From an uncultured Pseudomonadota bacterium (GTDB lineage: Bacteria > Desulfobacterota > Desulfobulbia > Desulfobulbales > Desulfurivibrionaceae): a DNA stretch of 64,000 nt. A program made the position numbers and the translations under genes. Below the pieces are notes generated by a model, which was given only the letters and a program-made list of their open reading frames with translations, ran no database searches and had not been told where the DNA came from. Each line of letters starts with the position of its first letter. Within the stretch, counting starts at the first letter, position 1. The stretch spans positions 1-64,000 of the forward strand of contig CALMMG010000051.1 in assembly GCA_937868185.1 (NCBI GenBank), read 5' to 3'. Positions 10,557 to 16,748 of this stretch are shown here, piece by piece.

Positions 10557-10817
10557 TCAGCTATGGATGAACACATACTCCCCGCCGTTAAAGACAATCT
10601 TCAGCCGCCCGCCGTGGTTCTCGCCGTATACCTCCCAACCCGGCCTGCCCTTGATCTCGCATTGCACACTCCTGGGCGAATGGGCTTCCTGCCGCGTATC
10701 AGACCAGGCGAGACAATCCGTCTCCCCATTCTCTTGCTGGGCCATGATCCTGGCCATACTCCGGGCCAAATCAAAATCAAGGTCTGCCCCGGTGATTGCA
10801 ATCAAAATGTCTTTCAT
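10557..10817 (-). CDS. AF1514-like small protein
   Basis: 86 aa MKDILIAITGADLDFDLARSMARIMAQ...GRPGWEVYGENHGGRLKIVFNGGEYVFIHS. Confidence 0.55.
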   Translation of the reverse strand: MKDILIAITGADLDFDLARSMARIMAQQENGETDCLAWSDTRQEAHSPRSVQCEIKGRPGWEVYGENHGGRLKIVFNGGEYVFIHS

Positions 10818-10909
10818 GCTACTATCCCTCCGTTGAAGAATGATTCCTTTGCCGCAAGAAAAACAGAGCACCGCCCTTTACGCAACAAGAACCAGAGCCA
10901 AGGCATCCC

Positions 10910-14949: not shown

Positions 14950-15405
14950 ATGGCCAGACAACACATCCTCCTTGCCGAGGGCAGACCCAACCTGCAACAC
15001 AGCCTTGGCCTGATGCTCAAACAAGCGGACTACCGGGTAAGCGTTGCCAACACCACAGAAGAAGCCATGACCATGGCCAAGGCTGTGCACAACAACCCGG
15101 AGACCATTGATCTTTTAATCGCCGATCTGGATTCCGCCTCGATTGAAACGTGCCGTGCCTTCATGCACACCCTGTCCGCCAGCACCCTCGCCATTCCCTA
15201 CCTCGTCCTGGCGGAAGAAATCTGCGATCATACAGCCGAGGCCTTAAAAAGGCACGGCTGCATGGCATGCATTACCAAACCATTTGAACCAGAAATCTTA
15301 CTCCAGAGCATTGAAGATGCTCTGAATCAGCTATCACTTAAAAATGAACACCACACAGGGAGGGCCGCAGCGAAAGACAGCACCGACAGCGCCGTAAACG
15401 GATAA
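14950..15405 (+). CDS. Receiver (CheY-like) domain protein
   Basis: ILLAEGRPNLQHSLGLMLKQADYRV...LLIADLDS...CITKPFEPEILLQSI. Confidence 0.8.
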   Translation: MARQHILLAEGRPNLQHSLGLMLKQADYRVSVANTTEEAMTMAKAVHNNPETIDLLIADLDSASIETCRAFMHTLSASTLAIPYLVLAEEICDHTAEALKRHGCMACITKPFEPEILLQSIEDALNQLSLKNEHHTGRAAAKDSTDSAVNG

Positions 15406-15431
15406 TTATTACTTTTTCAAGGAGATCGATC

Positions 15432-16748
15432 ATGCACAACAAGCAGTTACGCAAATGGATTCCTTTTTTACTCCTTACCGGGCTTCTGGTAAGCGGCCCG
15501 CCCCTTTCCGGCTCTCGGGCCTTTGCTGCCGATCCTGCCCCGCAGGCCAGCCAGAGCGCTAATACCCTGACTGGCAAGGTCACCGGTAAATCCAATAAAG
15601 CTAAAACCATCTCCATCGAGGTTAAGGGCAAGAACGAATTCCTCAAGTTCGATGATAAAACAACCGGACTTGAGCATGCCGACGAAGGCGAGGCCGCAGT
15701 CATTCAATTTGAAATGCGGGGCGATGACAGATTCGCCACCACCATCAAGCCTAAGCTTGCCAGCCTGCCCGAAGGCGTGAAGGAAATGAAGTCCGAGGAA
15801 CTGGCCAAATTTGTCGCCTTGGGTCCGGATGAGGGCAAATACGTGCTGATCGACTCCAGACCTGCAGCGGCCTACCACGAAGGACACATTCCCACTGCCA
15901 TCTCCATTCCCGACAGCGTGATGAAAGAATCCGGCGCAGCCTACCTGCCCGGGGACGCCAAGCTCAAAGACCTACAGCTCATTTTTTACTGTGGAGGGTA
16001 CACGTGAGGCATGAGTCCTAATTCCGCCGGTCTGGCGAAAAAAATGGGCTACACCAACGTACATGTTATGCTCGAAGGGGTTCCCGGTTGGAAGAAAGCC
16101 GGAAAGAGTGTCGTCGCCTCTGAAAAATTTGTCCAAACAGGCAACATCGTTTTAGTTGATCTACGTTCCAAGGAAGAATACGAAGCTGGCCATATCCCGA
16201 GGGCGCATAATATCCCCATGGCCTCTCTGGCGGACAAGGAGGATTCCCTCCCACTCAAGGCCCCCATCGTGGTTTACGCCAACTCCTTTGTCGAGGCGCA
16301 GAAAGGCTACAATCTCATCAAGAAATGGGGCGCAAAAACTGGCTCCATCTGGCCGGGTGGGGTAAAATCATGGTCTGCCACTGGCAAGAAACTGGCCACC
16401 GGCCCAACGCCTGCCGCCATCACTTGGGTGCGGCAGCTGGGCAAGGGCGAGGTCGGGGTGGCTGAATTCCAGAAGGCCATGGACGGCAACACCAACCAGG
16501 TCATCCTCGATGTCCGCACCAAGGATGAGGTGCAGACCGGTGCTTTCAAAAATTCCATTTCCATTCCCTTGGACCAGATCGAAAAACGCATCGCCGAATT
16601 GCCCAAGGACAAAGAGATGCTGATCCATTGTTCCACCGGTGCCCGGGCGGAAATGGCTAAAGCCGCCTTGGACAAGGCCGGACTCAAGAGCCGATTTCTG
16701 CGTGCCGATGTGGAATGCGAACAGGGCAAATGCGCGATCAAAGACTAA
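15432..16748 (+). CDS. Multi-rhodanese-domain exported protein with in-frame UGA, probable selenocysteine (438 codons when read through)
   Basis: ORFs 15432..16007 and 16011..16748 are in the same frame around TGA 16005-16007: YCGGYT(U)GMSPNSAGLAKKMGYTNV; rhodanese repeats continue after the TGA. Confidence 0.8.
16014..16050 (+). promoter_or_regulatory. Candidate bacterial SECIS hairpin
   Basis: Lower stem AGUCC/GGGCU, upper stem CGCC/GGCG, apical loop GGUCU starting 25 nt into the segment counted from the U of UGA. Confidence 0.6.

Follow-up and report, generated by a model that had tools for sequence, protein, structure and literature searches.

A predicted selenocysteine-containing triple-rhodanese protein split at an in-frame TGA, and the exchange of selenocysteine and cysteine among its relatives

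Does the TGA that separates two neighbouring open reading frames of the same frame, at positions 15432-16007 and 16011-16748 of the 64,000-nucleotide stretch of DNA analysed here (the window), end a gene, or is it read as selenocysteine (Sec)? An earlier sequence-only reading had interpreted the locus as a Sec-containing multi-rhodanese protein split at the TGA. Direct reading of the sequence confirmed that the two frames are in register and are parted only by the TGA and a GGC codon. With the TGA read as Sec, one intact frame of 438 amino acids is obtained, in which residue 192 lies in the context ...LIFYCGGYT-U-GMSPNSAG.... The coding signal is equal on the two sides of the TGA (0.23 and 0.24 bits per codon), as expected from the claim that coding quality is intact on both. 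The features of the locus are listed in Table 1. Judged by eye, a scan for further recoded TGA codons across the window gave no convincing second case.

Table 1. Features of the rhodanese locus, with positions in the window.
Feature	Position	Strand	Basis
Response-regulator receiver gene, stopping 26 nt before the selenoprotein gene	14950..15405	+	Pfam, neighbourhood clustering
Ribosome-binding site AAGGAG, 7 nt 5' of the ATG	15419..15424	+	Read directly from the sequence
Predicted selenoprotein gene, complete, exported triple-rhodanese protein	15432..16748	+	Frame, Pfam, full-length homologues carrying either TGA or Cys at codon 192
N-terminal signal peptide, predicted cleavage likely after AFA (residue 32)	15432..15527	+	By eye, orthologue N-termini
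All-beta N-terminal domain, residues 44-107	15561..15752	+	AlphaFold model; Pfam scan of 32 members
Rhodanese domain 1, active-site loop C187-G-G-Y-T-U192	15786..16109	+	Pfam, AlphaFold model, alignment
Cys187 codon, loop-start (catalytic) Cys of domain 1	15990..15992	+	Conserved in 110/111
Predicted Sec codon UGA of residue 192, at the end of the loop	16005..16007	+	Codon comparison of relatives
Predicted SECIS upper hairpin CGCC-GGUCU-GGCG, apical loop beginning 21 nt after the UGA	16025..16037	+	80/85 Sec genes exact, codon freeze, compensatory changes
Rhodanese domain 2, without catalytic Cys	16122..16400	+	Pfam; Cys/Sec inventory
Rhodanese domain 3, canonical loop C400-S-T-G-A-R	16449..16709	+	Pfam, alignment
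Cys400 codon, catalytic Cys of domain 3	16629..16631	+	Conserved in 108/111
Cys pair C429, C434 at the C-terminus	16716..16733	+	Alignment

A class-wide search of 258 genomes identified a strong homologue in 167, and 111 genes were compared at the level of single codons. TGA stands at codon 192 in 85 of these and TGC or TGT in the other 26, with no third state, such that residue 192 is Sec or Cys in 111/111. The suggestion that the UGA sits where a Cys would be is borne out, and the alignment of an in-frame UGA with Cys or Sec of homologues is one criterion by which bacterial selenoproteins are recognized. Within the family, for which 27 genomes were examined, nine further genomes of the same genus and one from a different genus (64% identity) carry a single TGA at codon 192, while TGC is found in three more congeners and in two members of the family outside the genus. 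Elsewhere in the phylum, a sample of 20 homologues has TGA in 17 and Cys in 3. The TGA is also present in independent assemblies of relatives, and it is due neither to chance nor to a sequencing error (TGA in place of TGC or TGT). TGA-containing and stop-free paralogues of the rhodanese protein occur together in four genomes (G215, G452, G535 and G572).

The hairpin noticed downstream of the TGA in the sequence-only reading was described as a lower stem (AGUCC/GGGCU) carrying an upper stem with a GGUCU loop, and only the upper part withstood comparison. Exactly 21 nt downstream of the TGA, the sequence CGCC-GGTCN-GGCG is found in 80/85 Sec genes, versus 0/26 Cys genes. The stem is kept paired in all five exceptions, one of which has a compensatory pair (L108, CGCA-GGTCT-TGCG); overall, pairing of the upper stem holds in 100% of Sec cells, and compensatory changes are seen in L108 (CGCA/TGCG) and in L200. 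Outside the class, the stem sequence varies with pairing kept, as observed in L215 (GGCA/TGCC), L216 (GGCC/GGCC), L223 and L229. At codons 198-202, codon identity given the same amino acid ranges from 0.94 to 1.00 among Sec genes and from 0.27 to 0.59 among Cys genes; averaged over the whole gene, it is 0.43 (sd 0.13) in either group. Codons frozen in this manner in Sec genes are what a SECIS element predicts, as the hairpin would be read at the RNA level. The 4-bp stem, the 5-nt loop starting with G and the 21-nt spacing all fall within the bacterial SECIS model, which allows a stem of 4-16 bp, a loop of 3-9 nt with an early G and a spacing of 16-37 nt (PMC13188914). Judged from this comparison of sequences, the hairpin is a bacterial SECIS element. 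The evidence is comparative: folded as a single sequence, the locus has an unremarkable energy (z -0.58), and an Rfam scan of the locus returned nothing above the gathering score. The lower stem is present in the window but is not conserved, its cells being paired in 47% of cases in Sec genes and 54% in Cys genes, and it was rejected as part of the element.

The Sec machinery used as a further criterion for a bacterial selenoprotein was found in the same genome, namely tRNA-Sec (selC, 72.5 bits), SelB (365 bits) and SelD (356 bits), all above curated cut-offs. selA was not found in the window's metagenome-assembled genome (MAG), which is incomplete (85.8%, 205 contigs), and is present in 16/16 other members of the genus. 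Across the class, selB is matched in 71/83 Sec genomes, and eight of the 12 remaining ones have selC. Neither a full selB nor a selC match was obtained in four Sec genomes (G017, G025, G184 and G225), all of which are draft MAGs; G017 and G025 nevertheless carry selA. All Cys genomes tested (n=25) have selB, so the switch between Sec and Cys is a property of the rhodanese gene and not a loss of the Sec trait. The selD gene of the window's genome itself looks like a selenoprotein gene, with an in-frame TGA near the N-terminus (MTKLKLTSTVKAAG-U-AAKLSPGDL), and is also interrupted by a contig break (L081, G000:C94:3-143, minus strand; L078, G000:C169).

Two other accounts of the TGA have to be weighed against these data. 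A true stop, either in a decaying pseudogene or created by a sequencing error in one assembly, would agree with the splitting of the gene by ORF callers and with the ordinary stability of the single-sequence fold, but the TGA is common to 85/111 relatives, independent assemblies included, the two sides carry an equal coding signal and the hairpin is frozen in TGA genes only; conservation refutes this account, which we regard as practically impossible. Scarcely more probable is the production of two polypeptides, with a stop at the UGA and a restart at the ATG at 16011, three bases downstream. Such an ATG, one codon after the TGA, is indeed found here and in most class relatives, yet several Sec relatives (those reading UVLS, UALS, UPFS and UGNS) do without it and Cys relatives have one continuous protein; moreover, the restart would cut the rhodanese active-site loop and leave the frozen hairpin unexplained. 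The comparative data show a single selenoprotein gene at 15432-16748, with UGA 192 predicted to be decoded as Sec, a reading to which we assign a probability of about 0.97. The sequence-only reading is thereby supported: as far as sequence data could address them, the three tests proposed with it (lack of selB and selC, a misread TGA, and homologues with a residue other than Cys or Sec at codon 192) did not refute it.

In the predicted protein, a signal peptide is followed by a small beta domain and then by the three rhodanese domains. Pfam recognizes the rhodanese family (PF00581) in three stretches (7e-45; 152 bits versus a gathering score of 22.2), in agreement with the earlier description of a rhodanese domain at the TGA followed by two more rhodanese units, and the AlphaFold model has a mean pLDDT of 84. 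Comparison of N-termini revealed that a lipobox Cys replaces the signal-peptide cleavage type in some orthologues. No curated Pfam family matched the beta domain in a scan of 32 members. The only Cys or Sec residues of the whole protein are those at positions 187, 192, 400, 429 and 434, and none is located in domain 2. The C-terminal Cys pair is found in most relatives, in tails that vary between CxxxxC and CDC types. The locus very probably encodes an exported Sec-containing triple rhodanese.

Rhodanese-like selenoproteins have been catalogued as five forms (PMC13188914), and form 1, a rhodanese-like domain-containing selenoprotein represented by WP_010941598.1, features the motif UxxS (PMC9312934, PMC13188914). 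The PF00581 fold and a Sec followed by xxS are common to form 1 and to our protein, in which the motif is U192-G-M-S195; U-x-x-S/T is found in most relatives and S195 is invariant in a 32-row alignment. By its UxxS motif, the protein is placed in this known kind. WP_010941598.1 is a Geobacter protein. No curated NCBIfam model matches the protein above its cut-off. Identity with TsoB (NF045694), a rhodanese/DsbD fusion-like protein with a UxxxxU motif, was rejected (53.5 bits versus a curated cut-off of 805). The spacing of five residues between two chalcogen residues is the same and domain 1 aligns (1e-14), but TsoB has a DsbD-like part where our protein has three rhodanese domains, and its first motif residue is Sec instead of Cys. 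Rhodanese_LYCAU (NF041203), a rhodanese-related (seleno)protein with a CxU motif, was likewise rejected (52.7 bits versus 115); both proteins share the fold and a Sec in the active-site loop, and domain 1 aligns (3e-14), but the Sec follows the Cys by two residues in LYCAU and by five here. EanB, YnjE and other solved multi-rhodanese proteins, which also have several rhodanese domains per chain, were the best matches in a fold search (E 3e-13 to 2e-10), although the global TM-score is only about 0.22, identity is 14-18% and none of them contains Sec. The fold search returned the multi-rhodanese fold only, with no functional match, a plasmid search returned only distant rhodaneses, and no paper on a Sec-containing rhodanese from Desulfobulb* taxa was found in the literature searched.

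The active-site loop of rhodaneses has six residues, with Cys first; in a survey of 13 solved rhodaneses, the loop ends with Arg, Thr or Ser, and this end residue is important for the cleavage of thiosulfate (PMC8533005). In domain 1, Cys187 and residue 192 hold the first and last positions. Because the loop-end residue is Sec or Cys and not Arg, Thr or Ser, domain 1 is probably a redox pair. A dithiol-like arrangement is likely, in which one residue carries a persulfide that the other resolves. The UGA would be decoded by the SelB/tRNA-Sec system of the cell, directed by the CGCC-GGUCU-GGCG hairpin; Cys187 would take sulfane sulfur as a persulfide, Sec192 would attack this persulfide with sulfide leaving, and the resulting Se-S bond would be reduced by Cys400, by the C-terminal Cys pair or by an external electron donor. 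A CxxxxC loop is known in a solved structure of another lineage (3nhv/3o3w, CWGPAC). A CxxCH haem-c motif near the N-terminus, found in 10/20 homologues outside the class and in the class paralogue L200, fits electron delivery. The single CxxCH precedes the beta domain (L214, L217, L220-L222, L225-L228 and L230 outside the class, and L200) and is CxxxCH instead in L223 and L224; these homologues are apparent cytochrome c/rhodanese proteins, most of them with Sec. We tentatively propose that the protein reduces or transfers sulfane sulfur (polysulfide/persulfide) in the cell envelope through this Cys187/Sec192 chemistry, a function that falls somewhat short of even odds.

Other functions can be envisaged. 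The protein could be a sulfurtransferase donating sulfur to envelope or periplasmic targets, Sec192 tuning persulfide transfer and not net reduction. General rhodanese chemistry and three rhodanese domains, one with a canonical CSTGAR loop, speak for this role, which is possible if doubtful, whereas domain 1 is without the loop-end Arg, Thr or Ser tied to thiosulfate use (PMC8533005), and the Cys/Sec pair and the CxxCH fusions point to redox turnover. A role of the Sec protein in binding or reducing selenium or tellurium oxyanions, or in envelope selenium handling, appears distinctly unlikely. It is suggested by the ext cluster of Geobacter, which joins the rhodanese-like lipoprotein ExtH (~49 kDa) with a putative cytochrome-c selenoprotein, and by the impaired selenite and tellurite reduction on loss of the neighbouring extI (PMC5877670, PMC6148476). 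ExtH, compared by description only, is exported, similar in size and from a related anaerobe, but lies in a cytochrome cluster and is not reported as a selenoprotein (PMC5877670, PMC6148476). No ext-like cluster adjoins the gene studied here, and the protein is kept in Cys versions in Sec-competent genomes. Neighbourhood clustering identified no conserved operon partner naming a substrate across the class; receiver genes of the cluster to which the 14950-15405 gene belongs are found upstream of the rhodanese gene in only 13 compared loci, within this genus as well as in certain other families. The stand-alone receiver gene is perhaps co-transcribed with the selenoprotein gene. A DUF5619 gene is located at 10557-10871 on the minus strand, and a small gene resembling it lies close to the rhodanese gene at several further loci.

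On a quick tree built without residue 192, the Sec and Cys labels switch about 14 times, at least 11 of them on strongly supported branches. For instance, L147 (Cys) and L157 (Sec) are close sisters. In the Cys genes L136, L147 and L195, a hairpin one base off the Sec consensus accompanies the TGC or TGT, and by sequence these hairpins look like relic SECIS elements from recent Sec-to-Cys replacement. As Sec is also what most of the sampled homologues from outside the class contain, it was probably the ancestral state within the class.

What is new here is the spread of the family, the fixation of the SECIS element and the repeated exchange of Sec and Cys. An envelope enzyme found in 167/258 class genomes is probably widely misannotated, because gene callers split the gene and no NCBIfam model matches it above cut-off. 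Sec and Cys forms of the same protein in close relatives, separated by about 14 switches, constitute a natural experiment; with selB kept in the tested Cys genomes and relic SECIS elements in place, the keeping or dropping of selenium at one residue becomes directly testable. It is possible, though less likely than not, that a family of exported, often haem-carrying triple-rhodanese selenoenzymes throughout the phylum reduces envelope sulfane sulfur via a Cys187/Sec192 selenosulfide pair, with repeated exchange of Sec and Cys and retention of the Sec machinery. If true, these enzymes would represent a step of sulfur metabolism that is as yet unassigned in the class (Desulfobulbia, by its named relatives) and its kin.
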